This document shows, piece by piece, positions 40,913 through 63,919 of a stretch of 64,000 nt of DNA (within the stretch, counting starts at the first letter, position 1; each line of letters begins with the position of its first letter). Origin of the DNA: Microvirga terrae (GTDB lineage: Bacteria; Pseudomonadota; Alphaproteobacteria; Rhizobiales; Beijerinckiaceae); assembly GCF_013307435.2 (NCBI RefSeq), contig NZ_CP102847.1:174489-238488 (forward strand). Reading direction: 5' to 3'. The notes under the pieces are model-generated. The model was not told the origin of the DNA. It was given only the letters and a program-made list of their open reading frames with translations, and did no database searches. The position numbers were made by a program, and so were the translations under genes.

Positions 40913-41012
40913 CTGTCTCCTGGCAACAAGTCCATGGATCGGAACCTACCGGACTGAGCCCGCCGGTGCGCCAGAGGAATTGACGTCGTTGCAGAGCGAT
41001 TGCTGGCATCGC
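40913..41012 (-). repeat. conserved leader repeat, copy 2
   Basis: Read on the minus strand: GCAATCGCTCTGCAA, then CGTCAATTCCTCTGGCG, then GTCCGGTAGGTTC and GCCAGGAG. It matches copies at 45198, 56694 and 63820. Behind the Shine-Dalgarno-like GGAG an ATG at 40909 opens only a 19-codon frame, which runs into the emrA operators, so the original downstream gene may have been lost. Confidence 0.7.
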
Positions 41013-41145
41013 GGGCCGCCGCCAATCGCTCTGAGAAGCCCTCTGTGGGTTCATGCCTCCAAGCATGCCTGTCCAATGGCGATCCCACTATTGAGCCGGT
41101 GGCGTGGGCGCCCACTCGATAAGTCCATGACGGCTAAACCGAAGT

Positions 41146-42225
41146 TTAGGTTGGACGGGTGAGGCTACCATCATGCCGGTCAATGCTCCCGACCCCGGTG
41201 GCCCGGCTGCGACGTCGACGCGGATGCCCTGCGAAGCGCGTTTCCGCGGGCACGGCACCGTCGAGAAAGACTTTCACCGCGGTGCGAGCACGCAAGTCGA
41301 GTTCGGACAGCGTTGGTCTCTCGCCGAGCTGAAGCACCGCTTCCAGATGAACAGTCCCGTAAAGCATTCCGAGAAACTGGCGGGCGCCGGCTTCGCAATC
41401 CACGAGATCGACTTCACCGGCCTGCTTTGCTCGTGCAAGAATTTTCGTCAGGACCGAGATGGCCGGCTTCGGGCCGTGCCGCGTGTACACCCGTGTGGCC
41501 TCTGGGTAGCGGTCTGCTTCGAGGATGGCCGTGTAACAAACCTCCAGCAAGGATGGTGTCATCATCGTCTCGAGAAGATTGCGGCCAATGATGAAGAGCA
41601 ACTCCCTGAGCGGCAGGGCAAGCTGGTCGGCACCGACGCTCAGGGCATTGGACGAGTATTGGCTGACCACCCTGGCGAACTGGTCGACGAGAAGCTGCTC
41701 GACGTTTTCGTGCCGCGTCGTCTTCTCGCGCAGGAGCTCCCGGTAGAGGCCGTGCGGTGTCCATGTCCAGCTCCGACGGCCGAGGATGAAGGCGGTGAGA
41801 GCGGCGCAATTGGACCACCCGCGAAGCTGGCACGCTTTGCCTGGGATCGCTTCGCGGACGCGAAGAATGTCGCCCGTCCCACCCCACCGGAGAAACTTGA
41901 CGGCATCGGCCGGTGGCAGGATCGTCACCATCATCCGTGTCCACCACGGCTCAGCGAGCAGCCAGCTACCGGTGCTGGTGGGTCGCATGGCAAAGACATG
42001 CTTATGCTTATGATGGACGAACCGATGCCACCACTGGCGTTGAAGGCCGGGGACGAAGCAGATGATCCAGTCGGCGGGATCGACACTCACCAGCGATCCA
42101 TTCACGTCCACGCTGTTCGCCAGGTCAGGCGGGGCATCGCCGACGACCTGCAGCCCGGACGCGGTTTCCCGGGTTCGCTTGAGCCAAGACAGACCCGCCT
42201 GGCCGTTATCGTTAGCTGCGCTCAC
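41146..42225 (-). CDS. fusion of a cysteine-protease-like domain with a TetR C-terminal ligand domain, no helix-turn-helix
   Basis: A 359-residue protein from GTG 42225, whose start overlaps the tetR stop as GTGA. Residues ~1-170 resemble a permuted papain-like domain found in uncharacterised proteobacterial proteins: H-H-K-H-K-H-V-F-A-M-R, W-L-L-A-E-P, G-W-S-N-C-A-A-L-T-A-F-I-L-G, and W-T-P-H-G-L-Y-R-E-L-L. Residues ~180-340 resemble the ligand domain of TetR regulators and align with the protein at 43012 (A-D-R-Y-P-E-A-T-R-V-Y, R-A-K-Q-A-G-E-V, A-R-Q-F-L-G-M-L). The DNA-binding helices are absent. It may be a sensor that pairs with a full TetR protein, or a chance fusion. Confidence 0.65.
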   Translation of the reverse strand: MSAANDNGQAGLSWLKRTRETASGLQVVGDAPPDLANSVDVNGSLVSVDPADWIICFVPGLQRQWWHRFVHHKHKHVFAMRPTSTGSWLLAEPWWTRMMVTILPPADAVKFLRWGGTGDILRVREAIPGKACQLRGWSNCAALTAFILGRRSWTWTPHGLYRELLREKTTRHENVEQLLVDQFARVVSQYSSNALSVGADQLALPLRELLFIIGRNLLETMMTPSLLEVCYTAILEADRYPEATRVYTRHGPKPAISVLTKILARAKQAGEVDLVDCEAGARQFLGMLYGTVHLEAVLQLGERPTLSELDLRARTAVKVFLDGAVPAETRFAGHPRRRRSRATGVGSIDRHDGSLTRPT

Positions 42226-42872
42226 GCGGTGGCCCTCCCCACGTTTGCACACCCCTGGACGAACCGTTCAAGGCTGGCCTTGACGTGGTCGGCGGCTGCT
42301 TCCTCCGGCCGCGTTGCAGGGCTCAACATAAGTGCCTGGTAGAGCGGCTCCCTGAGTATTCCCATCACATGCTCCGCATATAACCGAGAGTCCGGTATCG
42401 ACAGGATCCCTCGTTCACTTGCTTCCTGCAGAAACTTCCGCAGCGTCATCATCACCGTCGCCGGCCCAGCCTCGTACATTCGCCTTTTGAGCGGCGGGTT
42501 GCGGGTACCTTCGGCCATCATCATCCGAACGAACCCGACCAAGGTGGTCGCGTATTCTTTCCAGGCCCCCAGTCCGAAGTCGATCAGCGTATCCCGAACA
42601 TCGGCCAGGGTGCCGGGGCGCATACCGCTCAGCAATGGCTGTGAGAGGACGAGGGTGTTGCGTTCGGCAAGTGCGATGGCGAGGTCATCCATACTTCCGA
42701 ATGTTGCCCGGACGTCGTCTTCCGAATATCCGCTGCGATCCAGAAGACGATCGAGGCTCTCGAATGCGTTGCTCGGATCAGCGAGGGCCTCGCGGGCTGC
42801 CAGCATAATGGCAGTGCGAGCGCCCGGCTCAACATTGTCCGATTGAGCGGGCCTCAGCGTGGGACGTCTCAT
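42222..42872 (-). CDS. TetR-family regulator with degenerate helix-turn-helix
   Basis: A 216-residue protein from ATG 42872. The N-terminal part reads L-D-R-L-L-D-R-S-G-Y-S-E-D-D-V-R-A-T-F-G-S-M-D-D-L, which keeps the F-G-S-x-x-x-L pattern of the helix-turn-helix end but departs in the recognition helix. The C-terminal part is TetR-like with a late E-H-V-M-G-I-L. Upstream codons look like the start of emrA (V-A-Q-L-D-K), showing that the promoter region was copied from emrA. It is coupled to the fusion protein gene behind it. Confidence 0.7.
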   Translation of the reverse strand: MRRPTLRPAQSDNVEPGARTAIMLAAREALADPSNAFESLDRLLDRSGYSEDDVRATFGSMDDLAIALAERNTLVLSQPLLSGMRPGTLADVRDTLIDFGLGAWKEYATTLVGFVRMMMAEGTRNPPLKRRMYEAGPATVMMTLRKFLQEASERGILSIPDSRLYAEHVMGILREPLYQALMLSPATRPEEAAADHVKASLERFVQGCANVGRATA

Positions 42873-42935
42873 GTTCCTGCTCTTTAGTTCGGGGCTGGTG
42901 CAACAAGCCTTGTCGAGCTGCGCCACGACGCCTCT

Positions 42936-42979
42936 GGTAATGATAGTTACCATTGACAGATACGGTAACAGACGTTACC
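42936..42979. promoter_or_regulatory. paired GGTAA-N6-TTACC operators between divergent tetR genes
   Basis: GGTAATGATAGTTACC at 42936-42951 and GGTAACAGACGTTACC at 42964-42979, 28 bp apart. The flanks, including TCAAGAGG on one side and GAGCTGCGCCACG on the other, match the emrA promoter at 40780-40856, so this is a duplicated regulatory segment. Confidence 0.78.
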
Positions 42980-43011
42980 AGTCAAGAGGATGCAAACGGA
43001 CAGGAGGTTGA

Positions 43012-43644: not shown

Positions 43645-43688
43645 GCGGTAGCCGGACGCCCATGTTGTAGCAGCCGACGCCTTGGTGT

Positions 43689-44882: not shown

Positions 44883-45197
44883 AGCGGCGATCCTAGATAC
44901 TTGGAGATCTACTCTGGCATAAGACATCTCCCATCCATACCAAACCAAAGTACAGGTCAACCTATCCGCTCAAGCCATCCGGACTAGACTCGCTGCACGA
45001 TATCGGCGCCCAGGCGCCTGCATCACTATCGCACACATACGAGGGGAAGCGGTCCGTCAGCCGCGCCTGAATTGCGTCAAAGCGGCTGGCCGAATGTCGA
45101 TCAGCGTTCTGCCGACATGGAGATTGTTCGAGTGTTTAAGCCGGCGCTGCCTTGTATGGCTTCAGAACTGTCCCGTTTGGCGATCGCCCATCGGAAA
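44883..45197. other. intergenic stretch between cyclase and leader repeat copy 4
   Basis: About 315 bp where I see no gene; a GGCGCC-CA-GGCGCC inverted repeat lies near 45006. Short frames here lack family resemblance. Confidence 0.4.
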
Positions 45198-45290
45198 CAG
45201 CAATTGCTCTGCAAGCCCGTCAATTGCTCTGGCGCAGCGGAGCACCAGGTCCGGTAGTTTTCAGACCGTGAGCTTGGTCACAGGAGCCAG
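45198..45290 (+). repeat. conserved leader repeat, copy 4
   Basis: CAATTGCTCTG at 45201-45211 is repeated exactly at 45221-45231, then GCGCAGCGG, GGTCCGGTAG, GTGAGCT and CACAGGAG. This copy shows the 20-bp-phased direct repeat most clearly. The next gene starts at 45316. Confidence 0.75.
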
Positions 45291-45315
45291 TCATAGCACG
45301 AGCGAGAGATTGATC

Positions 45316-45663
45316 ATGCAATATTTGGAAACAGCAGCCACAGATGTGACTTGGACAAGACCGGATGCCGACGAGATCGAGCAACGGATCATCCGCGCCT
45401 ATGTACAGCTTGCCTGCAGCCCTCGGGAGAGAGGGGAATCCCGCAGTCTGATTGTGGCCCGCCTGAGTTGGCTGGACGTGCGGTTGACCGAAGTTTCATC
45501 CGAGATTCCGGGCATGCCGCCATTCTGGTTGGAGGTGTATTCGAACGCGAGCCAATCCGTCATCGACAGCTATGGATGCTCGGAGTTCGACGAGGATGAT
45601 TTGGCCACGTCAGTGCAGATGATCCTGAGCGCAGACCTGCGAGCGCACGATCTTCGCCATTGA
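45316..45663 (+). CDS. conserved hypothetical protein, paralogue of 10548-10937
   Basis: A 115-residue protein (MQYLETAATDV). It shares E-I-E-Q-R-I-I-R-A-Y-V, M-P-P-F-W-L-E-V and E-F-D-E-D-D-L-A-T-S-V-Q-M-I-L-S-A with the 10548 protein, in the same order and spacing. It is soluble and acidic, with no known domain. A TTG at 45310 is an alternative start. It is preceded by leader repeat copy 4, so it may share a control with the genes behind the other copies. Confidence 0.65.
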   Translation: MQYLETAATDVTWTRPDADEIEQRIIRAYVQLACSPRERGESRSLIVARLSWLDVRLTEVSSEIPGMPPFWLEVYSNASQSVIDSYGCSEFDEDDLATSVQMILSADLRAHDLRH

Positions 45664-45769: not shown

Positions 45770-46975
45770 ATGCGACTTGTCATCATAGGCGCCGGCTTTG
45801 CCGGCATGTACGCAGCACTGTCCGCTGCCCGCCTTCGCGACCTCGAGGGGAGGTCGTCCGACGATCTCGAGATCGTCCTGGTTGCCCCGGAGCCGACCCT
45901 GGTGGTTCGGCCGCGGCTCTATGAACCGAAACCCGAAACTCTCACGGCCCCTCTCCAAGAGGTTCTCAAGGCGATCGACGTTGTCTACATGCAAGGCAGC
46001 ATCGAGACGGTGGATACCGCATCCCGGGTGGTGGAAGGTGTCACGGCCGATGGGATGCGGGGAAGGCTCTCCTACGATCGCTTGATCGTGGCCACGGGCT
46101 CTCGGCTGTTCCGCCCGGCTATTCCTGGCCTGGCCGAGCACGCCTTCAGCGTTGACCAGCTCGACGACGCGATTGCCCTCGATCGGCACTTGCACAGCCT
46201 GGCTGATCGGCCGGCATCAAACGGGCGCAATACAGTCGTCGTGGCTGGTGGCGGGTTCACCGGCATCGAGGCGGCAACAGAAATGCCCGCCCGGCTTCGT
46301 GCGATCCTCGGCCAGGATGCCAAGCCGCGGGTTGTCATCGTCGAGCGAGGCAATGCAATTGCCCCGGACATGGGCGCGGGTCCCCGCCCGGTCATCGAGG
46401 AGGCCCTGCAGAAGCTCGGGGTCGAGGTCCGGCTCGGTGCCGGTGTCGCAGCCCTGGACCAATCCGGTGTCATGCTCTCTGACGGCGACCGCATCGAAAG
46501 TGCGACCGTGATCTGGGCGGCCGGCATTCGTGCCGCACCGCTGACGGCGCAAATCCCGGCCGAGCGCGACAACTTCGGCCGGCTGATCGTCGATCGCGAT
46601 TTGCGTGTGCCATCGGAGCCAAGCGTCTTTGCCACCGGCGATGCCGCCCAGGCCACCTGCGACGATCTCGGCAACTACGCGCTGATGTCGTGCCAGCATG
46701 CGACGCGGATGGGCGCGTTTGCCGGTCACAATGCCGCGGCTGATCTATTGAGAATTCCGACCAAGCCGTATCACCAGAAAGCTTATGTCACGTGTCTCGA
46801 CCTGGGCGAAGCGGGCGCGATCTTCACGCGAGGCTGGGACCGCAAGGTGGAGATGGTCGGTGCGGAGGCCAAGAAGACCAAGCAGGAGATCAACACCGTG
46901 TGGATCTATCCGCCGCCTGCCGACCGTGCCGCTGCGCTGGCGTCGGCGGATCCGGAGCGTGTCACCGACCTGTAG
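45770..46975 (+). CDS. ndh: type II NADH dehydrogenase-like FAD oxidoreductase
   Basis: A 401-residue flavoprotein with GGAG before ATG 45770. The FAD-binding [10 protein letters not shown] lies at the start, the NADH-binding [10 protein letters not shown] near residue 160, and A-T-G-D-A-A near 285 holds the second FAD contact. It should oxidise NADH and reduce membrane quinones without pumping. It leads an operon with acetoacetate decarboxylase, patatin and 3-hydroxybutyrate dehydrogenase (gaps 77, 33 and 33 bp), so it could re-oxidise NADH from ketone-body use. Confidence 0.85.
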
Positions 46976-47853: not shown

Positions 47854-47886
47854 CCTGGAAACATCCGGAATAACGGAGTTTGGACA

Positions 47887-50072: not shown

Positions 50073-53000
50073 TCAACCCTGCTGCATTTGAGCAGCGTGG
50101 TCGACGGAAGGGACCTCCTCCGATGCAGGGAGGGTAAATTGGAACATGGCTCCCCGAGGCTTGTTCGCGCTCGCCCACATTCGTCCGCCGTGCGCGTCGA
50201 CAATAGATCGGCAGATCGACAGCCCCATGCCCATGCCAGTGGCCTTGGTGGTGTAGAAGGCCTCAAACACGAGATCACTCGTTGCCGTCCCCAAGCCTGG
50301 GCCTGAATCCCGCACAGTGACGAGCACGCCGCCTGACTCGTCTGTCCCGGTGCTGATCAGCACTTCCCGCTCATCGTCTGAGACGCCGCTCAGGGCCTCA
50401 ATGGCGTTGAGGATCAGGTTGAGCATCACTTGTTGCAGTTGCACGCGATCGCCGCGAACCCGCGGCAAACCATCCGCCAGATCGGCCGTGACGCTGACGC
50501 GGTTCTTCATCGCCTCGGCGTGGGTGAGCTCAATCACCTCGCGGATGGGTCCGTTGATCTCCAGCAGATCCTGCTGCGAAGGTGCCTTCTTGATGAGATC
50601 CCGGATCCGGTGGATGACCTCGCCGGCGCGTGTGCTGTTCTTGACGATCTGAGTGAGCAACTGCCGTACCTTCTCCAGATCGGGCGATTGACGTGCGAGC
50701 CAGCGCAAAGCGGCCTGCGCACTGGCGACCGTCGCGGCGATAGGCTGGTTGACCTCGTGGGCGATCGAGCCGGTCAGTTGACCCATGGTGGTGACGCGGT
50801 TCGCATGGGCCAGCTCCATTTGCACCTCACGGTAGCGCCGCTCGCTCTCGCGGGCTGCGGCTTCCGCCCGCTTGCGTTCCGTCAGATCGAGAATGTAGGC
50901 GACCCCCTGGTTGGGCGGGTCTTCGAAGCAGGCTGCGCCGATCAGGATGGGCACCCGGCTGCCGTCCTTGCGGAAGTATTCCTTCTCGCGGGCTCGCATC
51001 ATGCCGGTTTCCTGAAGCTCTTTGGCCTCCTCGAGGATGTGTGCTTGCTGCCATTCCGGAGGCGTCATGTCGAACCATCGCATCCCGGCCTTCAAGTCCT
51101 CGCGATCGTACTGGACCATGCGCAGAAACGCATCGTTGGCGTCGAGCAGACGACCGTCCAGGTCCCAGATGACGATCCCGATCACGTCGGAGTCCACGAG
51201 GCGCCGGATCCTGCCTTCGCGTTCCGCCAGGTCCTTGTACAAGCGGGTGTTCTCAAGCGAGATCGCCGCCTGCGAGGCGAGGAGCTTCAGCACCGCAATC
51301 CGGGCTGGCGCAAAGACGCGGGGCGCCAGATTGTTCTCGAGATACAGCACCCCAATGACCTTGGCCTGGTTGAGCAGCGGCAGGCAGAGAACGGACCGGG
51401 CCTGCCGCTGACGGATGTACTCATCGGTAGCGAATGGGGGCTGGACAGCGGCATCATCGAGAATGACGCTCTCCTGGGTGCGCAGAACATAATGCAGCAC
51501 CGACACCGGCAGCACAGCGGTGGCCACAGGCTCGTTGCACCGGTGCACAATCACCGAGTCACCGCTGGTCGTGGCTTCTGCGGCGACGTGCTGCGCCCCC
51601 CCTTGCGGAAGGATGAGCAAGCCTCGCTCGGCCCCCGCCTGCTCGAGGGCCGTGCGTATGAACGTTTCGAGCAGCTTGTCCAGCACGATCTCGCCCGAGA
51701 TGGCCTGCGAGACCTTGATCACAGTTGCCAGATCAAGGTGATCGACGGATGCGGCGATCGTGCTCGTTGGAGCTGGTGCCCGCTCATCCGTTCGAACTTG
51801 TGGGTATATTATATCGAGTTGCTGGACCTTGCCTTCAGCACCCCAGCGCAGATAACAGTAACGTGCGTGCCGCAGATACCCATGCGCCGTAATCTCGAAG
51901 CCACCTGCGGCGTAGAAGCGTGCTGCAAGCTCACTGGCAAGCGCCTCATTATGAACAAAGCCGTTCGCCTGGGCCGACCGGATGGCCTGTTCGTACAGGT
52001 TCATGGCCTCGAGTGTGCGGCCTTCAATCCGGGCTATCTCCGCGCCGACCAACGCAGCACGGTTATCGAAGTTGTCTGGGCAGTTCTCGGCCCATTCCCG
52101 AAGCTGGCGATGATGGGCGGTCAACGCGTCGACGTGTTGACCGCGTTCGGCGGCGTTTACCGAAACACAGAGACCAGCACGAGCCAGCGCAGCGTAAAAA
52201 TGATACTCCGCCACCTCGAAGCATGACAGCGATGTCCAGAGAAGCCGTTCGGCGTTCGCGGCCGCTGCGAGGGCGGATGCATAGTCGCCCGCGAAGACGC
52301 GGGCCTGCAGCTTGCGGATCCAGTACCAGCAGGTGGCGATCGACCGTCCCGGATCCTCCTCCAGATGCTGCTCGAATTGGCCTTCGTCGAACTCGGCGTC
52401 ATGGAAAGCACCGAAGGTCGGCGTCTGGCCGCGCAGCGTCCGAATGAGCTGGAGCTGGGCGGTGATGATATCAATGATGAGACCGAACTGGATTTGGCCT
52501 GCGAACGCAAGCCCGGTCTCGGCCTCGCGTTGCACCTCGTCGAGCGGGTTCCCGGAGGCGAGCAGGCACGTAAACAGATTATTGCAGCCGTACCCCGCAA
52601 AGCTGAGATCGCCGACTTCATTGGCCGTTGCGAAAGCACGCCGCACCATCGGCAGGCTCGTCCGAACATGGCGCGTCCAGGGGGTCACGTGACTCCCGAA
52701 GAGCAAGTAGACACGGGCCTTGAAGCGGCCAAGCCCGCGCTGCTCGACCAGGTCCACGCCGAGCTGGCCGAAGCGGAACCCGGCCTGATAGTTGCCGAAA
52801 TGCGGCCCGAGAACCATGCCGAGCCAGACATAGGCCGAGCACGATCCGTCGCTGTTGCCATGCTCGAGACTGAGGTTCACCATCCGGCAGATCACAAGAC
52901 AGAGCAGGTTCTGGTCGATGCTCATCGCCGGCGGCAGGATCTCGAACAGGACCTCCATGGTCCCTCGCGCCAATGGATCGGACATCCGCGGCAGATCGAG

Positions 53001-55658
53001 CAGCGCCTCGATCGGCTGGTCGGCGAGTTCGCGCCAGATCCGCTCGTATTCCTGCTGAACCTCCTCCCGTGTCGGGTGGGCCGACCACTGCACGCCGACG
53101 TGCCGGAGATAGCCGAGGCAGACCTCGACGGCGCGGTCGCTCCGGCCGAGGGTCATGAAGAGCTCTGCCCTCAACCGGGTGACGGCAGCCAGATCCGTGA
53201 GGTTGGGGGCTCGACTCGCTAAGGCGGCAAGGCGCTCCTCCGCTTGCGTCAGCGTACCGGTCAAGAACTCGCATTCGGCGCGATGCAGCTCGACCGCGAA
53301 GGTGAGATCGGGGCGGCTCTCCCAGGCGTCTTCTGGCAGCAGCGCCGCACCGGCGGCGAGGTATCTCAGGGCAGAAGCGTAGGCCACAGAGGCCTTGGCG
53401 CGTTTGCCTGCAAGAAGATTGAGCTCGGCCAGGTGTTCGCGCTCATCCTGCGAGACGATCAAGGCCGCTCCGCGGTTGAGCTGATTCACGATGTCGAAGA
53501 TCGCCTCCTCGCGTCTCTCCTCCGGTGTGTGCGCCGCGAGAAGCCTCCCCAGTCGAAGGTGTACAGCCATCTGCTTCCGTTCTGGAATGAGCGCATAGGC
53601 CGCCTCCTGGACGCGATCATGGACGAACCGGTACTGATCTCCCGTGCGCTCGACCAACTCTTGACGGCGGGCTGGCCATAAAACCTTATCGACCTGCTCC
53701 TCCGTCACGCCGAGGACGATCGACAGTGCCGTGATCTCAGCGATGTTGCCGAGGCACGCCATCTGCCGCAGGGCATCCTGCGCCTTGGCCGGCAGGCGGG
53801 TAAGCTTACTGACCATGAGATCGACGACGTTGTCGGTATACCCCTTGGCGTGAATGCGATCGACGTTCCAGGACCACCGCGCGCTGTCGTGATCGAACGT
53901 GAGTAAGGCCTCGTCCACGAGCGTGGACAGGAACTGAATGGCGAAGAACGGGTTGCCGGCGGTCTTGTCGTGGACAAGCTGCGCGAGGGGAGTGACATGC
54001 TCCAGTTCGCAGCGAAGGGCGTCCGCAATCAGCTGCGTCAGATGCTCCCGGGCAAGTGGCGCCAGCGTGATCTCCGTGACCTGTCCGCCGGCCGCCTTGA
54101 TCCCGTCGAGCTTGCGCATGAGCGGATGAACGGAAGTGACTTCATTATCGCGATAGGCGCCGATCAGCAGGAGGTGACGCAGTTCCGAGCGGGTCAGCAG
54201 ATCCTCCAGCAGGTCGAGCGTCGCCGCGTCGAGCCATTGCAGGTCATCGAGGAACAGCGCCAGCGGATGTTCGGAGCGGGCGAATGCGCCAAGGAAGCGC
54301 CGGAACACCAACTGGAAGCGATTGTGCGCCTCCTGTTGCGGCAGCTCAGGGACCGGGGGCTGCTCGCCGATGATGAGCGCCAGCTCCGGGACGAGATTGA
54401 CCATGAGCTGACCGTTCGGGCCGAGCGCCTCCCGCAGGGCGTCGCGCCAGCGAGCCAGGTCCGCCTCGTTCTTGCCGAGAATCTGGCGGACGAGGCTCTG
54501 GATCGCTTGAGCCACCGTGGCATACGGGATGTCGCGCTTGTACTGGTCGAACTTGCCGGCGGCGAACAGGCCACGGGGCGGCACCAGTTCCTTGTGCAGC
54601 TCGTTCACCACCGAGGACTTCCCGATGCCGGAATAGCCCGACACCAGCACCAGCTCCGGCGTGCCGCCGGCCGCCACCCGATCAAAGGCGCCAATGAGCA
54701 TGTCGATCTCGGCCTGGCGCCCGTACAGCCTCTCGGGGATCAGCAGCCGGTCGGGTATGTCCTGTCGGCCCAACGGGAAGTCGTCGATGCGGCCATGGGC
54801 CTGCCATGCGGCCAGGCAGCGTCGCAGATCGGCCTCAACTCCCCCAGCGGTCTGGTACCTCTCCTCGGGCGTCTTAGCGAGCAGTTTCATGATGATCGCC
54901 GAGACCGGGGTTGGGACATGCTCCACTCGGTCCCTCGGCGAGACGGGCTGGCGGGCGATATGGCAGTGCACCCAGGCCATGGGATCGGCGGCGGTGAAGG
55001 GGAGGGCTCCCGTCAGCATCTGATAGAGGGTGACGCCAAGGGCGTAGAGATCGCTGCGGGCATCGATCGAGCGATTCATGCGCCCAGTCTGCTCTGGCGC
55101 CATGTAGGCCAGCGTGCCGGCAATGGTCTCAGGAGCTTCGGGCGCTTGGCGCTCACGCAGCAGGCGTGACGCGATGCCGAACCCGGTCAGCCGCACGTGC
55201 CCGTCCGTGCAGCCCACTACAATGTTGCCTGGTTTGATGTCTTTGTGGATCAGGCCGCGTTGGTGAACCTTGCCCAGAGCCGTAGTGGCACCGATTGCGA
55301 TGGATAGGAAGCGGCCTATCTCCAGAGGTGAGCCGAGCCGCCTGGCAAGCGGCTCACCTCCCGGATCCTCAAACACCAGCGTGGTCCGCCCACCCTCACG
55401 CGTCAGCTCGAACGGTCGCAACGCCCAAGATGCATCCAGCTCATCCTTCAAGCCAAATTCGTAAGCGAGGCGAACGAGGCTGGCGGGGGAGGGATGCTCC
55501 GCGACCGGAACCACCGCCAGCACTGTGGTCCGGCCGCCATCGGCGTAGTTCACTCGTCGGCAGAATGCACGCTCGCTGTCCTCCCACAAAACCTGGAGGC
55601 TGTTGGCTCCCTCACCGCTGGCCTGAAGGGATGGGTCCACCTTGGGCTCCGCTGGCAA
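50073..55658 (-). CDS. trifunctional Ser/Thr kinase-like, AAA-type ATPase, GAF/PAS, histidine kinase
   Basis: An 1861-residue multidomain protein. Order: Ser/Thr kinase-like (~20-290; H-K-D-I-K-P-G-N catalytic loop, but G-F-G in place of D-F-G); STAND/AAA ATPase (~310-500; Walker A G-Y-S-G-I-G-K-S-S, Walker B L-F-L-D-D-L-Q-W); a helical repeat region (~690-1290); GAF (~1320-1470); PAS (~1490-1610); HisKA (I-A-H-E-V-N-Q-P) and HATPase (D-S-G-P-G-L, G-M-G-M-G-L) to 1850. It is cytosolic. The lost DFG Asp suggests that the kinase-like part no longer transfers phosphate. The transmitter module is almost the same as in the kinase at 62031. Confidence 0.9.
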   Translation of the reverse strand: MPAEPKVDPSLQASGEGANSLQVLWEDSERAFCRRVNYADGGRTTVLAVVPVAEHPSPASLVRLAYEFGLKDELDASWALRPFELTREGGRTTLVFEDPGGEPLARRLGSPLEIGRFLSIAIGATTALGKVHQRGLIHKDIKPGNIVVGCTDGHVRLTGFGIASRLLRERQAPEAPETIAGTLAYMAPEQTGRMNRSIDARSDLYALGVTLYQMLTGALPFTAADPMAWVHCHIARQPVSPRDRVEHVPTPVSAIIMKLLAKTPEERYQTAGGVEADLRRCLAAWQAHGRIDDFPLGRQDIPDRLLIPERLYGRQAEIDMLIGAFDRVAAGGTPELVLVSGYSGIGKSSVVNELHKELVPPRGLFAAGKFDQYKRDIPYATVAQAIQSLVRQILGKNEADLARWRDALREALGPNGQLMVNLVPELALIIGEQPPVPELPQQEAHNRFQLVFRRFLGAFARSEHPLALFLDDLQWLDAATLDLLEDLLTRSELRHLLLIGAYRDNEVTSVHPLMRKLDGIKAAGGQVTEITLAPLAREHLTQLIADALRCELEHVTPLAQLVHDKTAGNPFFAIQFLSTLVDEALLTFDHDSARWSWNVDRIHAKGYTDNVVDLMVSKLTRLPAKAQDALRQMACLGNIAEITALSIVLGVTEEQVDKVLWPARRQELVERTGDQYRFVHDRVQEAAYALIPERKQMAVHLRLGRLLAAHTPEERREEAIFDIVNQLNRGAALIVSQDEREHLAELNLLAGKRAKASVAYASALRYLAAGAALLPEDAWESRPDLTFAVELHRAECEFLTGTLTQAEERLAALASRAPNLTDLAAVTRLRAELFMTLGRSDRAVEVCLGYLRHVGVQWSAHPTREEVQQEYERIWRELADQPIEALLDLPRMSDPLARGTMEVLFEILPPAMSIDQNLLCLVICRMVNLSLEHGNSDGSCSAYVWLGMVLGPHFGNYQAGFRFGQLGVDLVEQRGLGRFKARVYLLFGSHVTPWTRHVRTSLPMVRRAFATANEVGDLSFAGYGCNNLFTCLLASGNPLDEVQREAETGLAFAGQIQFGLIIDIITAQLQLIRTLRGQTPTFGAFHDAEFDEGQFEQHLEEDPGRSIATCWYWIRKLQARVFAGDYASALAAAANAERLLWTSLSCFEVAEYHFYAALARAGLCVSVNAAERGQHVDALTAHHRQLREWAENCPDNFDNRAALVGAEIARIEGRTLEAMNLYEQAIRSAQANGFVHNEALASELAARFYAAGGFEITAHGYLRHARYCYLRWGAEGKVQQLDIIYPQVRTDERAPAPTSTIAASVDHLDLATVIKVSQAISGEIVLDKLLETFIRTALEQAGAERGLLILPQGGAQHVAAEATTSGDSVIVHRCNEPVATAVLPVSVLHYVLRTQESVILDDAAVQPPFATDEYIRQRQARSVLCLPLLNQAKVIGVLYLENNLAPRVFAPARIAVLKLLASQAAISLENTRLYKDLAEREGRIRRLVDSDVIGIVIWDLDGRLLDANDAFLRMVQYDREDLKAGMRWFDMTPPEWQQAHILEEAKELQETGMMRAREKEYFRKDGSRVPILIGAACFEDPPNQGVAYILDLTERKRAEAAARESERRYREVQMELAHANRVTTMGQLTGSIAHEVNQPIAATVASAQAALRWLARQSPDLEKVRQLLTQIVKNSTRAGEVIHRIRDLIKKAPSQQDLLEINGPIREVIELTHAEAMKNRVSVTADLADGLPRVRGDRVQLQQVMLNLILNAIEALSGVSDDEREVLISTGTDESGGVLVTVRDSGPGLGTATSDLVFEAFYTTKATGMGMGLSICRSIVDAHGGRMWASANKPRGAMFQFTLPASEEVPSVDHAAQMQQG

Positions 55659-55964: not shown

Positions 55965-56690
55965 TTACCAGTTGATGGCTGATGTGGCCGCGACTTGGTT
56001 GCCGAGCGCAACCCAGGCGAGGCTCTGGTCGCCTTCGCTCTTGATGTAGACATAGCCGGTCCGATGCCACGGCAGGACTGCGTCCCGCTTGTTGTCGAGG
56101 ATGAAGTCACCTTGGTCAGTGCGAGCCACTAGCACGGCATGTCCTTGACCCAACTCGTCTAGCACCACGACCATGCGCAGCGCCCGCCGCGGCAGGCCGG
56201 CCTCGACCAGCAGGCGGCGTTTGAGGATCTGGTAGTCCTCACAATCGCCATAGCCGTCATCCGGGTAGTCCCAGCGGTCGGCTACGCTCCAGTGATCGAT
56301 GTCCTCCCGGGGCTTCACGGTAGAGTTGACGAGGGTGTTGGTTGCCACGATTGCCTTCCACACACGCTTATTGAGCTGGATCGTGGCCGGCTCAGCCGGG
56401 TTGATCGAGCACTCGGCAGGAAGCCGCTTGCAGAATTCACTCCAAGCTTCGGTCGGCTGAGCACTACCATCGGTGGTCGGAATCCAAGCTTCGTCGAGTT
56501 GCCGGATCTCAGCCGCGCTGACACGCGGACCAGAGACGAGCACGAGAAGCAGAAAGACGGTGAACGCGACGGCCCGCACGAGCCAGACAAGGCTCCCCCG
56601 CGGCTTGAAAGGAGGTTCCGGGGTACCGTAATCCCCTTGCTGATCTTCAGACGGATAACACGCGTACGGACGGTTTGTTGTCCAGGGCAT
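55965..56690 (-). CDS. BTLCP-type transglutaminase-like cysteine peptidase, copy 2
   Basis: A 241-residue paralogue of the protein at 11436, with the same plan: N-terminal membrane segment (A-V-A-F-T-V-F-L-L-L-V-L-V), then the catalytic set Y-G-D-C-E-D-Y-Q, G-Q-G-H-A-V-L and F-I-L-D-N-K-R. Conservation is strong through the domain but poor in the first 40 residues. The promoter differs: it has leader repeat copy 1 rather than TetR palindromes. The two copies therefore answer to different signals. AGGAGG precedes the ATG. Confidence 0.85.
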   Translation of the reverse strand: MPWTTNRPYACYPSEDQQGDYGTPEPPFKPRGSLVWLVRAVAFTVFLLLVLVSGPRVSAAEIRQLDEAWIPTTDGSAQPTEAWSEFCKRLPAECSINPAEPATIQLNKRVWKAIVATNTLVNSTVKPREDIDHWSVADRWDYPDDGYGDCEDYQILKRRLLVEAGLPRRALRMVVVLDELGQGHAVLVARTDQGDFILDNKRDAVLPWHRTGYVYIKSEGDQSLAWVALGNQVAATSAINW

Positions 56691-56693
56691 GAT

Positions 56694-56793
56694 AGCCCTC
56701 CTGGCACTTAGCTCATGCCCAAGAAGCTACCGGACCATGTCCGCCGCTGCGCCAGAGCGATTGACGTCCTTGCAGTGCGATTGCTGCCATCGC
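56694..56793 (-). repeat. conserved leader repeat, copy 1
   Basis: On the minus strand: GCAATCGCACTGCAAGG, CGTCAATCGCTCTGGCG, GGTCCGGTAG, CATGAGCT, GTGCCAGGAGG and the BTLCP ATG at 56690. The end of the repeat serves as the ribosome-binding site. The rest of the 56794-57008 gap is AT-rich around 56830-56850 and probably holds the promoter of the PAS kinase. Confidence 0.78.
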
Positions 56794-57008: not shown

Positions 57009-60000
57009 ATGACGACAGTATCTTACTCATCCAGTGAAGCTGGCCCCGACATCATGTGCACGCTGCAAATGATCGAAAGCATGCCCGGCCATGCGTGGTC
57101 GGCCGACGCCACTGGGCGGTTCACGTGTTTTAGTCGAAATACTCTGGATTTCCTCGGCCATGCGCCCGACGATCTCAATTCGACCGAGGACGATGAGTTC
57201 GGCTGGCGCCCAGCCGTTCATCCCGAGGATTACGAACGCGTCACCGCCCGGTGGCGGCATTGCCTGGAAACCGGCGATGCTTATGAAACCGAGCATCGCC
57301 TGAGGCGTGCTGATGGCGACTACTGTTGGGTGCGAAGCTCAGGCCTCCCCTCACGCGACAGCCAGGGGCGCATTGTCCAATGGTACGGCACAATCATCGA
57401 GATTGAGGACCAAAAACGGGCCGAGAAGGCGTTGCGCGATCGGGAGCGGGAACTCTCCCAACTCGTGGATATGGTGCCAAGCCACGTTTGGCGCCTGACA
57501 CCCGACGGCGAACCGACCTTCTTCAACAAGCGCATGGTGGATTATCTCGGCCTGGACGTGGCGGATACGGACAAGCCGGGCATGAGCCGGCTGGACGCGG
57601 TTATCGAGACCGTTCATCCGGAGGACGCGGCAAAGTTCAGGGCTACCCTCCACCGTTCTCTTGTTACGGGCGAGAGTTTCGCCTTGCGGTATCGCCTACG
57701 CCGAGCCGACGGCGTCTATCGCTGGATGTCGAGCCGCGCGGAGCCGTTACGAGATCAGGAAGGTTATATTATCGAGTGGTACGGCCTCTGTCATGACATC
57801 GATGATCAGATGCACGCCGACGAAGCGTTGCGGCAAAGCGAGCGGCAGCTCCAGCAGATGATCGACGCCGTGCCGGCTGTCATCTGGTGTACATCTCCGG
57901 AAGGCATCCCGTGTTACCTCAACAAGCGGGCCACCGATGTCACCGGCCTCACTCTGAACGATTTGATCGCGCCCGACGGATCACGGTACCTGACGGTCGT
58001 CCATCCGGACGACCGGGATGCGGTGGAGCAGGCGCTCGGACGCGCGATCGCGACGGGCACGTCCTTCGTGAGGAAGTATCGCCAGCGCCGGTCCGACGGC
58101 CGCCATCGCTGGGTCGAGAGCCGCGCTGAACCGTTGCGTGACGACTCCGGCAAGATCATCCAGTGGTACGGCGTGAGCGTCGACATCGACGACCTCGTGA
58201 CCGCGCAGGAGGCCTTGCGCGACCGGGAGAGGGAATTGTCGCAGCTCGTCGACATGGTCCCGGTCCACATCCGGCGTCTGACGCCCGAAGGCGAGCCGAC
58301 GTTCTTCAACAAGCGGTTGCTGGACTTCTTCGGCCTGCAGAGCCCCGCCGAATTAGACAAGCCGGGTATGAGTCGCCTGGCGGCCGCCATCAAGACCCTT
58401 GTCCATCCCGATGATTCCGATCGTCTGCTGGCGACCGTCCGCCACTCGGTGGCGACCGGCGAGCCCTATACCATGAAATACCGCATGCTTCATGCGGATG
58501 GAGCGTACCGCTGGGTCGATGGGCGCGCGGAACCGGTGCGTAACCAAAGCGGAGCGATTGTACAATGGTACGTGATTTCGCTCGACATCGACGATGAGAT
58601 GCGTGCGCAGGAATCGCTGCGCGAGCGCGAGCGGGAGCTCTCGCAGCTCGTCGACATGGTTCCAAGCCTGCTCTGGCGGTTGTCTCCCGAAGGCGAGCCG
58701 ACCTTCTTCAGCAAGCGCCTGATCGAGTTCACCGGCCTGGATGTAGGCGACTTCGACAAGCCTGGTACGACCCGACTGGCGGCCGCCATCGCGACCCTCT
58801 TCCATCCCGACGACATCGCCAAGCTGGAGCAAGCGCTCACCCGCTCTCTCACCACCGGCGAGAGCTTTTCCCTGACCTATCGCCTGCGTCATGCCGATGG
58901 GGGCTACCACTGGATGTCGGGCCGAGCCGAGCCGCTCCGGGATGAGAGCGGACGCATTGTCCAGTGGTATGGCCTCTCGCACGACATCGACGATCAGGTC
59001 CGCATCGAGGAGGCGCTGCGGGAAAGTGAGCGGCAGCTTCAGCAGCTTATCGACACCGTGCCGGTTCAGATCTGGTGCGTGACGCCCACGGGTGAGCCAG
59101 CATACATCAACAAAACCATGGTGGACTATATCGGCCTGAAGCTGGACGATTTTGACGCTCAGGGTGGGCTGCCCAACGCAATTAAAACTATCGTCCATCC
59201 GGACGACAGAGCCACATTGCAGCAAGCTTTAACGCATTGTTTCAGCACAGGTGAATCATTCGCATTGAAGTTTCGCCACCGCCGATGGGATGGCTCATTC
59301 CGCTGGCAGGAGGGGCATGCGGATCCGCTCCGCGATGAGAACGGTCGCATCATCCGGTGGTATGGTGCGAACGTCGACATCCATGATTTTGTGATCGCCC
59401 AGGAAGCACTCCGCGAAAGGGAACGCTCGCTGTGGCAGCTGGTGGAAACGCTGCCGGCGATGATCGATTGCGCCGCGCCGGACGGCGAGCCGATCTATCG
59501 CAGCCAGCAACTCCGCGAGTTCCTCGGGTATAACCTTGAGGAACTGGACGGAACGGGAAAGTCTCGCTTGGCTGGCACACTTGAGGCCGGCGTTCATCCC
59601 GATGACCTCGCGGGCGTCCTGGAGAACTATGCCCATTCGCTGTCCACCGGCGAGCCGTATCGGCGCAGGCACCGGCTGCGGCGTTTCGATGGCGAGTATC
59701 GCTGGGTCGAGACGCGTGCCGCACCGATGCGAAACGCCGAGGGCGCCATCGTACAGTGGAACGTTATCTGCCTGGATATCGACGGTGAAGTGCGGGTGCA
59801 GGAGGAACTGCGTCTGGCGCGAGAGAGCCTGGCACGGGCGAGCCAGGCAGCCAGTCTTGCTGAGCTGTCGGCTGCCATCGCTCATGAGGTGAACCAACCC
59901 TTGGCGGCGATCGTCACCAACTCCAATGCGTGCCAGCGCTGGCTTTCGGCCACCCCACCAAATCTCGAGCGGGCGCAGAAAACGGTGGATCGCATCATCT

Positions 60001-60533
60001 ATAACGCCAATTCCGCCGCCAACGTCGTGAGCCGTATCCGCGCCCTGTTCAAGCAATCGGTGAAGATGAGGACGAGCACAGAACTCTCAGCCGTCGTGGC
60101 CGAAGTGCGTAATCTCATGGCCGAGGAGGCGGCGCGGCGACGCGTTCGGATGGACGTCGCGGTCGATAGCCACCTTCCGCCTGTCGCTGTGGATCGCGTC
60201 CAGGTTCAGCAGGTTCTCGTCAATCTCATCCGCAACGGCATGGAGGCCATGGACTCTTTTGTGGGCGACAGAGCTATTGGAATACGGGTGCGCCGAGTGG
60301 GGGATGAGGTCCAGACCGAAATTAGCGATCGCGGCCGGGGCATCGAGTTTCCTGAACGGGTGTTCGAGCCGTTCTTCACGACAAAGGAGCACGGCATGGG
60401 CATGGGGCTGGCGATCTGTCGATCGATCGTCGAGGCGCACGGTGGGCGGTTGTGGGCCGGGTCCAACGAGCCGCAGGGGGCAACGTTCACCTTCACGTTG
60501 CCGATTGAAGCGACCACGGCGCCTGATAGATAA
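57009..60533 (+). CDS. cytosolic histidine kinase with seven tandem PAS domains
   Basis: An 1174-residue protein with no membrane span. Seven PAS/PAC units of roughly 130 residues start near residues 20, 155, 285, 415, 545, 675 and 805, each opening with a V-P/L-P box and having a P-x-G-E-P-type strand, and each ending in a W-Y-x-x-x-x-D-I-D-like PAC strand. Units 2, 4 and 5 are close to each other (L-V-D-M-V-P start). The transmitter has I-A-H-E-V-N-Q-P-L-A-A (near 960), N-L-I-R-N-G-M-E-A, D-R-G-R-G-I and G-M-G-M-G-L-A-I. The regulator at 60882 is the likely partner. Confidence 0.92.
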   Translation: MTTVSYSSSEAGPDIMCTLQMIESMPGHAWSADATGRFTCFSRNTLDFLGHAPDDLNSTEDDEFGWRPAVHPEDYERVTARWRHCLETGDAYETEHRLRRADGDYCWVRSSGLPSRDSQGRIVQWYGTIIEIEDQKRAEKALRDRERELSQLVDMVPSHVWRLTPDGEPTFFNKRMVDYLGLDVADTDKPGMSRLDAVIETVHPEDAAKFRATLHRSLVTGESFALRYRLRRADGVYRWMSSRAEPLRDQEGYIIEWYGLCHDIDDQMHADEALRQSERQLQQMIDAVPAVIWCTSPEGIPCYLNKRATDVTGLTLNDLIAPDGSRYLTVVHPDDRDAVEQALGRAIATGTSFVRKYRQRRSDGRHRWVESRAEPLRDDSGKIIQWYGVSVDIDDLVTAQEALRDRERELSQLVDMVPVHIRRLTPEGEPTFFNKRLLDFFGLQSPAELDKPGMSRLAAAIKTLVHPDDSDRLLATVRHSVATGEPYTMKYRMLHADGAYRWVDGRAEPVRNQSGAIVQWYVISLDIDDEMRAQESLRERERELSQLVDMVPSLLWRLSPEGEPTFFSKRLIEFTGLDVGDFDKPGTTRLAAAIATLFHPDDIAKLEQALTRSLTTGESFSLTYRLRHADGGYHWMSGRAEPLRDESGRIVQWYGLSHDIDDQVRIEEALRESERQLQQLIDTVPVQIWCVTPTGEPAYINKTMVDYIGLKLDDFDAQGGLPNAIKTIVHPDDRATLQQALTHCFSTGESFALKFRHRRWDGSFRWQEGHADPLRDENGRIIRWYGANVDIHDFVIAQEALRERERSLWQLVETLPAMIDCAAPDGEPIYRSQQLREFLGYNLEELDGTGKSRLAGTLEAGVHPDDLAGVLENYAHSLSTGEPYRRRHRLRRFDGEYRWVETRAAPMRNAEGAIVQWNVICLDIDGEVRVQEELRLARESLARASQAASLAELSAAIAHEVNQPLAAIVTNSNACQRWLSATPPNLERAQKTVDRIIYNANSAANVVSRIRALFKQSVKMRTSTELSAVVAEVRNLMAEEAARRRVRMDVAVDSHLPPVAVDRVQVQQVLVNLIRNGMEAMDSFVGDRAIGIRVRRVGDEVQTEISDRGRGIEFPERVFEPFFTTKEHGMGMGLAICRSIVEAHGGRLWAGSNEPQGATFTFTLPIEATTAPDR

Positions 60534-60575
60534 AGACTTTATAAAATTTTATTGCGAAGGAGCGGACATTCGCTC

Positions 60576-60881: not shown

Positions 60882-61526
60882 ATGGTCAAGCTCAAGGCCG
60901 AAACAGATCGTCCTCTGGTTCTCATCGTTGACGACGATGAGGAGGTCCGGACGGCACTCCAGGAACTCATGGAGTCCATCGGTCTCGATGCGGGGTGTTT
61001 CGCGTCCCCTCGTGAACTACTGGAATCCGAGCTTCCTGACCGCCCCGGCTGTCTGGTGCTCGACGTCCGCATGCCCGGAGCGAGCGGCCTCGATCTTCAG
61101 ACCCAACTGGCCGCAAAGGGCAACCCGAAGCCGATCATCTTTCTGACCGGTCATGGCGACATCCCGATGTCCGTCCAGGCCATGAAGGCCGGTGCCGTTG
61201 ATTTCCTCACCAAGCCGGTCCGCGACCAGACCCTGCTCGACGCGGTCACCGTGGCCATCGAAAAAGATGTTGCCCAGAGGGCAGAGGCTCATCGCGCCAG
61301 ACAACACCTTGACCGGTTTGCGACCCTGACGCTGCGCGAACGAGAGGTCATGCGCGAAGTCGCCCGGGGCCGGCTCAACAAGCAGATCGCGTTTGACCTT
61401 GGCATCAAAGAGATCACGGTCAAGCTTCACCGCGGCAACGTGATGCGCAAGATGCAGGTCGCCTCCGTGGGCGAACTGATCCGGGTATGGGAGATGTTGC
61501 CGGCTGAGCTTCGCGATAAGCCGTGA
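60882..61526 (+). CDS. FixJ/LuxR-type response regulator
   Basis: A 214-residue regulator; ATG 60882 follows GGAGG and begins just before the domain, so the longer open frame is rejected. Receiver: L-I-V-D-D-D-E-E-V, phospho-Asp in V-L-D-V-R-M-P, T-G-H-G-D and T-K-P-V. Output: a LuxR helix-turn-helix with L-T-L-R-E-R-E-V-M and N-K-Q-I-A-F-D-L-G-I-K-E-I-T-V-K-L-H-R. It is likely phosphorylated by the PAS kinase just upstream and controls transcription. Confidence 0.93.
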   Translation: MVKLKAETDRPLVLIVDDDEEVRTALQELMESIGLDAGCFASPRELLESELPDRPGCLVLDVRMPGASGLDLQTQLAAKGNPKPIIFLTGHGDIPMSVQAMKAGAVDFLTKPVRDQTLLDAVTVAIEKDVAQRAEAHRARQHLDRFATLTLREREVMREVARGRLNKQIAFDLGIKEITVKLHRGNVMRKMQVASVGELIRVWEMLPAELRDKP

Positions 61527-61541
61527 ATCCTAGACCTTGGT

Positions 61542-62027
61542 ATGGTATCCATGGGAGTGCGATCAGCGCAAGCTTCGGAAGACGGCCCAACGGGTCGCAG
61601 CAACAAAGGCACCCGCTTGTCCAAGCCACCTGTCATTGCCATCGTGGATGACGACGAGGCCATCCGCGAGGCTTTCTCCGAGTTGCTCGACGTGATGGGG
61701 TGCTCGTGTCAGGTCTTCGACCGGGCCGAGGCGTTCCTGGCGGCCCATGCACCCGGCCGTTTCGACTGCCTGATCACCGATGTCCGCATGCCCGGTATCA
61801 GCGGCATCGAACTGATCGAGCGGCTCAAGGCCATGGGGTCGACCATGCCGATGATCGTCGTGACCTCCTTTGACGATCCTGTGAGCCGAAGCCGGGCGCT
61901 CGAGGGCGGGGCCCATGCATATCTGACGAAGCCGGTCACCGACGACGTGCTCCTTCAGTATCTCAAGACCGCGTTGCCGGGCAGGGATATCCCGTCTGAC
62001 GAGGACAATGGGTCGGCTGTGGGCTAG
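61542..62027 (+). CDS. single-domain response regulator
   Basis: A 161-residue protein (ATG 61542 by default; the receiver begins near residue 30, so a later start is possible). Receiver: I-A-I-V-D-D-D-E-A-I, phospho-Asp in I-T-D-V-R-M-P, T-S-F-D and T-K-P-V. No output domain; about 15 polar residues follow. It lies 15 bp after the FixJ-type gene, and convergent to the ParD-kinase gene with a 3-bp gap. It may pass phosphate between the two kinases or act as a competitor. Confidence 0.88.
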   Translation: MVSMGVRSAQASEDGPTGRSNKGTRLSKPPVIAIVDDDEAIREAFSELLDVMGCSCQVFDRAEAFLAAHAPGRFDCLITDVRMPGISGIELIERLKAMGSTMPMIVVTSFDDPVSRSRALEGGAHAYLTKPVTDDVLLQYLKTALPGRDIPSDEDNGSAVG

Positions 62028-62030
62028 GCG

Positions 62031-63722
62031 TTACGATGCGCCATTCGAGGGGATCGGCAACGTGAACTGAAACACGGCTCCGCACGGTTCGTTCGCGCTC
62101 GCCCACATGCGTCCGCCGTGCCCTTCGATGATTGAACGGCTGATCGCCAGCCCCATGCCCATGCCGGCTGCCTTGGTCGTGTAGAAGGCCTCGAACACGC
62201 GCTCACTTGTGGCCACTTGCAAACCCGGACCTGAGTCCCGCACGGTGACGAGCACGCCGCCTGACTTGTCGGTTCCGGTGCTGATCAGCACTTCCCGCTC
62301 ACCGTCGGAGACGCCGCTCAGTGCGTCGACGGCGTTGACAATCAGATTGAGCATGACCTGTTGCAATTGCACGCGATCACCGCGAACGAGCGGCAAGCCA
62401 TCGGCCAACTCGGTCTTGAGGCTGACGCGGTTCTTCATCGCCTCCGCGCGGGTGAGCTCAATCACCTCGCGGATAGGTCCGCTGATCTCCAGCAGATCCT
62501 GACGCGGCGGCGCCTTCTGGATCAGATCGCGGATCCGGTGGATGATCTCGCTCGCCCGGGTGCTGTTCTTGACGATCTGGGTGAGCAACTGCCGCACCTT
62601 GTCCAGATCGGGCGATTGACGCGCGAGCCAGCGCAGAGCCGCCTGGGCACTGGCGACCGTGGCCGCGATGGGCTGGTTGACCTCGTGGGCGATCGAGCCG
62701 GTCAGCTGGGCCATGGTGGCAACGCGGTTGGCGTGCGCCAGCTCCATCTGCCCCTCGCGGTAGCGCCGCTCGCTCTCGCGGGCCTCCGCTTCCGCCTGCT
62801 TACGAAGGGTAATATCCCGCAAATAGGCCGTAAACCGCGGCCCCTTCCCGCTACTGATCGGACTGATGGCCAACTCGACGGGGAACCGGGAACCGTCAGC
62901 CCGCAAGGCCTCCAGCTCAATGCGCCGGTTCAGCACAGGACCTTCACCCGTGGCAAGATAATGAGCCATGCCGCGGCGGTGCCTGTCCCGGTATTCCGGC
63001 GGGATGATGAGGCCGGCCAAATCCTGGCCCAAGACCGCCTCCCGCGTAAACCCGAAGGTCTGCTCCGCAGCGGAGTTCCATTCGATGATGTGGCTCTCTC
63101 CATCGGTGGAGATAATGCAGTCGAGGGCCGCCTCGAGGATGGAGCCCTTGAGGGCCTCACTCTCACGCAAATCCTCCTGGGCGTTCTTGTAGTCGGTCAT
63201 GTCGATAGAAACAGCCAGGAGGCTGTCCAACGTGCCGGAGCGATCGCGAACAGGGCTGACGGCATTCCGCACCCAGACCACTGATCCATCTGGGCGCAGA
63301 TAGCGCTTCTCGATCTCGAAGGCCTCACCTAATTTCAAGGCGCGACGGAACAGAGTTACATTGTGGGCGAGGTCGTCCGGGTGGGTGCAATCCTGCATGC
63401 TGAGCTGGAGAAGCTCATCGCGGCGGCGGCCCAGGATGGCGCAAAATTGGTCGTTCACGCGCACAAAGCGCCCGGTCGGGTCACATTGGGCCATCCCTGC
63501 CGCCGCCTGGGCGAAAAGGGCTTCCACCTGCTCCCTGCTTCGGGCCAAGGCCCCATCGGCTGGGCCATACAGGTCAGGCATCGCCCGTCCCTCGTAGAAG
63601 CTCTGCAGAGCTGCGTCGATGATATCGCTGGCACTCTGGTAGTGGCCGGAGGACACATCCTCGCCGATAAGGTGCACGAGTTCAGCGGTGAGGGAGACGT
63701 TCAGGGTGGATCTGGGCGCCAT
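62031..63722 (-). CDS. PAS histidine kinase with an N-terminal ParD/RHH-like segment
   Basis: A 563-residue protein from ATG 63722 (63752 is also possible; neither has a strong Shine-Dalgarno). Residues 1-45 look like a ParD-type antitoxin N-terminus: S-T-L-N-V-S-L-T-A-E-L and S-G-H-Y-Q-S-A-S-D-I-I-D-A-A-L. Then PAS 1 (~65-190), PAS 2 (~200-320), and a transmitter with I-A-H-E-V-N-Q-P, N-L-I-V-N-A-V-D-A and G-M-G-M-G-L-A-I. There is no membrane span. The transmitter is nearly the same as in the giant kinase. Confidence 0.85.
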   Translation of the reverse strand: MAPRSTLNVSLTAELVHLIGEDVSSGHYQSASDIIDAALQSFYEGRAMPDLYGPADGALARSREQVEALFAQAAAGMAQCDPTGRFVRVNDQFCAILGRRRDELLQLSMQDCTHPDDLAHNVTLFRRALKLGEAFEIEKRYLRPDGSVVWVRNAVSPVRDRSGTLDSLLAVSIDMTDYKNAQEDLRESEALKGSILEAALDCIISTDGESHIIEWNSAAEQTFGFTREAVLGQDLAGLIIPPEYRDRHRRGMAHYLATGEGPVLNRRIELEALRADGSRFPVELAISPISSGKGPRFTAYLRDITLRKQAEAEARESERRYREGQMELAHANRVATMAQLTGSIAHEVNQPIAATVASAQAALRWLARQSPDLDKVRQLLTQIVKNSTRASEIIHRIRDLIQKAPPRQDLLEISGPIREVIELTRAEAMKNRVSLKTELADGLPLVRGDRVQLQQVMLNLIVNAVDALSGVSDGEREVLISTGTDKSGGVLVTVRDSGPGLQVATSERVFEAFYTTKAAGMGMGLAISRSIIEGHGGRMWASANEPCGAVFQFTLPIPSNGAS

Positions 63723-63819
63723 AGACCGATCCAGTGCATGAATGAAATCCATTATAAGACTGTTGCAAGGGATGTCACTGCCGAAGTCTCGGAGACGATC
63801 TGAGCGTGAATAGGCCCGC

Positions 63820-63919
63820 GACGGCAGCAATCGCGCTGCAAGGACGTCAATTCCTCTGGCGCAGCAGTGGCGCCGGCCCGGTAGGTTCGATCCCATGAGC
63901 TTTGTGCCGGGAGGCCGTG
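63820..63919 (+). repeat. conserved leader repeat, copy 3
   Basis: GCAATCGCGCTGCAAGG, CGTCAATTCCTCTGGCG, GGCCCGGTAGGTTC, CATGAGCT and GTGCCGGGAGG, ending just before ATG 63920. It is divergent from the ParD-kinase gene. Confidence 0.78.

Follow-up and report, generated by a model that had tools for sequence, protein, structure and literature searches.

MarA, SoxS and Rob act at single marboxes, which are bound by a monomer. Another concept is that of putative mobile promoters, in which a promoter sequence is found in front of non-homologous genes. XylS binds as a dimer to two homologous 15-bp direct repeats, each made up of boxes A and B, and the process involves DNA bending and contact with the polymerase, as stated in excerpts of one source (PMC5481539). 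An overlap between the binding sites of XylS and the polymerase is indicated by the title of a work cited in the same source (PMC5481539).

The locus studied here lies in a stretch of 64,000 nucleotides of Microvirga terrae DNA, referred to in full as the window, which forms part of contig C3 (238,488 bases). With good confidence we regard each copy of a repeated element in it as a promoter under the control of one AraC/XylS-family regulator, with promoter and leader probably having been copied on C3. This assignment rests on the repeats, their fixed spacing, their position ahead of start codons, and the linkage and co-occurrence with the regulator gene, all of which were observed.

The sequence-only reading had placed four copies of about 100 bp in the window with a repeat period of 20 bp, and both statements were confirmed. 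The double-repeat pattern yielded four matches in the window, compared to none in 100 dinucleotide shuffles, and the repeat period is exactly 20 bp in 4/4 copies. The alignment of these copies has a mean column identity of 80% over 124 columns. A profile search of the whole genome (6.13 Mb, 4 contigs) raised the number of copies from four to six, the additional ones being located at C3:3877 and C3:36945. All six sites (E ≤ 4e-16) are found on C3, while the next candidate has an E value of 0.12. When counted from the start of the first repeat (position 0), the mean identity of the six copies goes up at about -10 and down at about +90. The features are located as follows, with positions of the window unless C3 is given.

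39758 to 40792, minus strand: gene of an EmrA-type adaptor (emrA), downstream of copy c1 and of what appear to be its own promoter and operators (promoter judged by eye).
40907 to 41012, minus strand: copy c1, promoter element and leader, upstream of emrA; repeat 1 at 41002-40992, repeat 2 at 40982-40972, GGCGCA at 40972-40967, putative -10 box TAGGTT at 40948-40943, Shine-Dalgarno-like GGAG at 40920-40917, probable relic 19-codon frame from 40909.
45054 to 45224, plus strand: remnant of the N-terminal portion of an AraC-family regulator gene, abutting and slightly overlapping c2.
45193 to 45290, plus strand: copy c2; repeat 1 at 45201-45211, repeat 2 at 45221-45231, GGCGCA at 45231-45236, putative -10 box TAGTTT at 45255-45260; followed by a frame of 115 amino acids (45316-45663) and the FAD oxidoreductase gene.
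45770 to 46975, plus strand: FAD/NAD(P) oxidoreductase gene (PF07992), downstream of c2.
55965 to 56690, minus strand: BTLCP peptidase gene (PF06035), behind c3.
56690 to 56793, minus strand: copy c3; repeat 1 at 56783-56773, repeat 2 at 56763-56753, putative -10 box TAGCTT at 56729-56724; BTLCP start codon at 56690.
63820 to 63919, plus strand: copy c4; repeat 1 at 63828-63838, repeat 2 at 63848-63858, putative -10 box TAGGTT at 63882-63887; start codon at 63920.
63920 to 64000, plus strand: first 27 codons of a chimeric-looking frame, which continues at C3 base 1.
C3:3877 (outside the window): copy ahead of a carboxymuconolactone decarboxylase-family gene, which is followed by an NAD(P)-binding gene.
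C3:36945 (outside the window): copy ahead of a gene whose receiver-domain match is weak and falls short of the Pfam cut-off.

Reading frames had been proposed earlier behind all four window copies, including one cut by the window end and one of 19 codons. The former runs on in frame from C3 base 1 to its end (C3:1-1254), giving a product of 445 residues with a patatin domain, and the latter is probably a relic and not a gene. Since the 445-residue frame crosses the contig ends, which is a strong sign of circularity, C3 is probably circular. The oxidoreductase behind c2 is related to a family found near the element in other genera. Three large sensor kinases are encoded around the copies (50073-55658, minus strand; 57009-60533, plus strand; 62031-63929, minus strand), one of which has an N-terminal protein kinase and an AAA domain.

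The core of the element consists of two CAATYSCNCTG-like repeats 20 bp apart, a GGNGCA box and a TA located 54 bp from the start of the first repeat, and it recurs across Hyphomicrobiales. Column counts were taken from 26 sites that were found with a model and not with the pattern; 24 of them differ from the exact pattern, the model itself having come from pattern-selected copies. In these sites, conservation is highest at GCAAT, followed by CAATCGCTCTGG, GNGCA and TA, while the stretches between the boxes and the spacer between the -35 and -10 regions are more variable. The invariance of the boxes in 28 pattern-found loci, like that of the invariant columns of the model set, was partly forced by the search pattern. 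The TA occurs at a fixed place of the model in 24/24 sites that reach this position. Both repeats are kept in the 26 sites, with a spacing of 20 bp in 25 of them (the exception, L090, is one base shorter when aligned to the model), and the spacing is also 20 bp in 28/28 matches of a scan of GTDB species contigs, although the pattern allowed 18-22 bp. No TTGAC-like -35 box was seen by eye in the element sites. Four of the six C3 copies deviate at column 33, which is otherwise invariant across the other 19 copies of the model set, and one of these four deviates at column 19 as well. Such a conservation profile would be expected of a promoter in which protein binds to two repeats and a -10 box follows. 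The earlier proposal that the direct repeat would suit a dimeric regulator on one face of the DNA was supported. Three sites are present near one AraC gene at locus L088 (311-347, 1501-1568 and 1651-1692), and in two of these the match does not extend to the -10 half, as would be seen if some copies consisted of the operator alone.

The 28 loci of the GTDB scan belong to Bradyrhizobium, Rhizobium, Sinorhizobium/Ensifer, Rhodopseudomonas, Hyphomicrobium and one further Rhizobiales bacterium. Across 36 genomes of the same genus and 24 other genomes of the order, the exact pattern matched in the strain's own genome alone; a profile search later added one element of the same genus, in Microvirga lotononidis HAMBI 3237 (G017). 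The promoter half is common to the Microvirga copies and the five copies from other genera that were compared, while the leader half is restricted to the Microvirga copies among them.

Position relative to genes was assessed by looking, at a distance of 60-150 bp from where the site begins, for a Shine-Dalgarno sequence and the start of a frame of at least 40 codons (or of a frame leaving the stretch). Such a start was found at 41 of 66 sites, whereas of 5000 positions drawn at random from these loci 412 (8.2%) had one, and in 37 of the 41 cases it lies 97-106 bp from the site start. The other 25 sites, c1 and c2 included, lack it. The lack of any bias towards start codons, which the sequence-only reading had named as the mark of a plain dispersed repeat, was hence not observed, and the view of a promoter and leader element ahead of unrelated genes gained support. 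Recurrent neighbours are an AraC-type regulator (mostly upstream and in the same direction), an alpha/beta hydrolase, an FAD oxidoreductase, an MBL-fold-like protein and an NAD(P)-binding family. The AraC assignment was made by Pfam and the others via orthologues on C3, except for the MBL-fold family, which was taken by eye. C3 has orthologues of the other neighbour families, including the FAD oxidoreductase behind c2. One step of the site analysis covered 57 sources, with duplicates and later loci left out. At three loci (L024, position 7319; L034, 7103; L043, 856), a second site lies on the other strand at a distance of several kb and may drive another operon.

At 41 of the 66 sites, the strand of the site carries an AraC gene or a remnant of it whose end lies no more than 300 bp upstream. 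It is found within 1.6 kb at four more and elsewhere in the locus at another four; 17 sites have no AraC match in the stretch examined, many of these stretches being short. The genome of M. terrae contains one close copy of this regulator (C3:33988-34929, outside the window) with 73% identity, the next by score having 34%. It carries the domains HTH_18/HTH_AraC (PF12833, PF00165), and the best solved relatives of its DNA-binding domain are Rob and SoxS. The gene lies 2 kb from the nearest C3 copy and 34-57 kb from the window copies when counted round the circle. Tandem pairs of AraC genes of the same family precede one element at L108/L121 and L110/L122 (G148, G363). The largest set among the genomes listed was found in G551, with 12 sites and five AraC matches.

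Element (E ≤ 1e-6) and regulator (E ≤ 1e-50) also co-occur. In a sample of 347 genomes of the order, 14 had both, none had the element only, one had the regulator only (with 48% identity) and 332 had neither. For 175 genomes of the genus of G071 the corresponding numbers were 112, 3, 1 and 59 (Fisher p 9e-42, a value that ignores relatedness). Three of the 115 element-positive genomes of that genus lack an AraC match at the cut-off, and their sites are weak (E 1e-6 to 7e-9); in the single regulator-only genome the match begins at a contig end. Both samples are subsets, and stricter filters can miss weak sites. An AraC regulator with at least 61% identity is present in 13/13 other genomes searched that have element and AraC gene. 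In the own genus (48 genomes), the strain's own genome has both and M. lotononidis has a single copy without the regulator. Of the 23 columns that are invariant in the model set, 3 are altered in this orphan copy, which suggests that it may be decaying without its regulator. It is one case, and no constraint is visible on the pair formed with c2: 63 of 72 columns are identical, which is about the same as in the flanks (86-87%). The co-occurrence could also come from a cluster inherited as a block.

Other explanations have to be weighed against this evidence. The FixJ-type regulator encoded at 60882 had been put forward as one candidate for binding the element, which would make the AraC gene a passenger of the cluster. 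Its gene is near c4, relatives with E ≤ 1e-40 occur in 17 of 19 genomes searched and in 13 of 15 element bearers, and M. lotononidis, with its c2-like copy and no close AraC protein, has a FixJ-type relative at 71%. However, of the 13 other genomes that have both the element and the AraC gene, just 3 contain relatives with at least 64% identity, element-less genomes of the same genus have close ones (86-90% in G020, 75% in G027), and G347 and G353 carry the element without any relative at E ≤ 1e-40. It is the AraC gene, and not the FixJ-type gene, that is often adjacent to the element and co-occurs with it. The earlier candidate was thus not supported, as its distribution does not track the element. 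A FixJ-type regulon was rejected because relatives with at least 64% identity are missing from most of the other genomes with element and AraC gene, even though M. lotononidis points the other way, and binding by this or another regulator is judged improbable. The AraC-family protein could also bind the element as a repressor or in both roles. As the second repeat adjoins or overlaps the putative -35 region, a protein bound to it could stand in the way of the polymerase; on the other hand, the absence of a TTGAC-like -35 box, as judged by eye, suits an activator-dependent promoter, and the arrangement resembles that of XylS and Pm as far as described in excerpts of PMC5481539. We regard repression as unlikely, albeit less so than control by a different regulator.

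If the element were simply a dispersed repeat or a small mobile element with no part in regulation, this would account for six copies on one contig, for the presence of c1 in the window and its absence in two relatives, and for the apparent part of another gene carried by c4. This reading is very improbable given that boxes and spacing are kept across genera while the spacers vary, and given the start-codon bias and the frequent position behind AraC genes. Terminal inverted repeats were not detected in the four window copies: inverted pairs in c1, c2 and c3 are not at both element ends, and c4 has none. A MITE or insertion sequence was rejected on the lack of transposon-like ends in these copies. 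The lowest probability is assigned to an RNA leader, such as a riboswitch, a thermometer or a protein-bound mRNA element, that would sequester the Shine-Dalgarno sequence. Conservation among the C3 copies does extend through the leader to the Shine-Dalgarno sequence; against this, the leader half is absent from the five copies of other genera that were compared. Rfam gave no match in or near the copies, and its two matches in other parts of the window were at chance level. Folding of the four window copies was no better than that of shuffles (z 1.47, 0.03, -0.32 and -0.26), and none of five predicted pairs changed on both sides in 26 sequences. Based on Rfam, folding and covariation, an RNA element was rejected.

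With an AraC-controlled promoter as the preferred reading, the arrangement of the copies provides indications of how they arose on C3. In a gapless comparison over 30 bases of the leader, the C3 copies are 53-83% identical to each other, compared to 3-43% for the five copies from other genera. M. lotononidis has a c2-like copy in the same place, which shares the leader (60-80%), so that the composite of promoter and leader predates the split from that species. The AraC remnant at c2 has 47% identity over 57 amino acids (E 3e-5), with a best match of 50% over 52 amino acids (E 2e-7), and the M. lotononidis copy likewise keeps a remnant of the AraC N-terminus. Among the C3 copies, the remnant is found beside c2 alone: upstream of the remaining five (c1, c3, c4, C3:3877 and C3:36945), tblastn found no match with an E value lower than 0.1. 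An SDWRR-like stretch seen by eye upstream of c1 was too short to count as a remnant. Partial AraC copies are also present beside L016, L019 and L042.

At the emrA site, Microvirga sp. VF16 and M. lotononidis have, as seen by eye, a TTGAC(C/T) promoter with operators and no element. The distance between the matching blocks is 231 bp in the window, with c1 inside, versus 47 bp in VF16. We infer that c1 was gained here and not lost in two relatives. Because c1 is absent from the emrA site of both, the 19-codon frame is most likely a leftover of a copied leader. In the c4 frame, about 21 codons show a resemblance to C3:37048, a response-regulator-like gene (48 of 63 bases, followed by 3 of 18), and the first codons look as if they had been borrowed and fused in frame to a patatin-like gene. 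On C3, paralogues without the element exist for the BTLCP gene, at 11442-12131 of the window (minus strand), and for the gene at C3:37048. This first BTLCP copy is followed, at about 11066-11398 (minus strand), by a relative of the gene downstream of C3:36945, and the element is absent there. Taken together, the c2 remnant, the comparison of the emrA site, the c4 fusion and the element-less paralogues favour the view that a promoter cassette was copied, by a mechanism not seen here. There is about an even chance that the regulon grew by pasting of promoters. In such a course of events, units of AraC gene, promoter and target would have multiplied and several AraC copies died; the orphaned promoters would answer in trans to the surviving AraC protein and would have been recopied, with their leader and even first codons, ahead of unrelated genes (emrA, the peptidase gene and the patatin gene fused in frame).

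For the mode of action, binding, activation in preference to repression, the start site and the signal are what we infer from the sequence. Two regulator molecules, each with two helix-turn-helix motifs, would bind the two direct repeats 20 bp apart, the GCAAT and CTG boxes within each repeat being about one helical turn apart. The second repeat would run into the -35 region (GGNGCA), and the bound regulator may recruit RNA polymerase to a poor promoter, whose -10 box would begin with TA. The signal is perhaps a toxic or oxidising compound, which is a guess from the target genes. On C3, promoter and leader would have been copied to further genes, once together with first codons of a previous target.

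For an AraC-family protein that occurs in many Hyphomicrobiales of root nodules and soil, the results provide a regulator, an operator and a regulon of six promoters that can be put to the test. The sequence also lets one read the likely steps by which a regulon expanded, namely loss of the regulator, copying of the promoter and capture of a new gene in frame, and this would illustrate how new genes can come under one control in a bacterium.

Among the matches listed in the literature search, no description of the element or its regulator was found at the level of titles and abstracts. The best reading is that of an AraC/XylS-type promoter family, which is of a known kind, with this particular family not found described in the literature searched; of greater interest is that it has probably spread on one plasmid. 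Like the XylS/Pm system of the TOL plasmid, as far as covered by the excerpts of PMC5481539, it combines an AraC-family regulator with two direct repeats of two boxes each upstream of the -10 box. It differs in the boxes, which are GCAAT and CTG here and TGCA and GGTA, 6 bp apart, in XylS/Pm (compared by eye with the same excerpts), and in the presence of several copies on one contig. With MarA, SoxS and Rob it shares a DNA-binding domain nearest to Rob and SoxS and the scheme of one regulator for several scattered promoters, but unlike their sites the element keeps both repeats in the 26 model-found sites. Like putative mobile promoters, it precedes non-homologous genes; unlike these, it has a likely regulator, an AraC gene remnant at c2 and no transposon-like ends in the four window copies.
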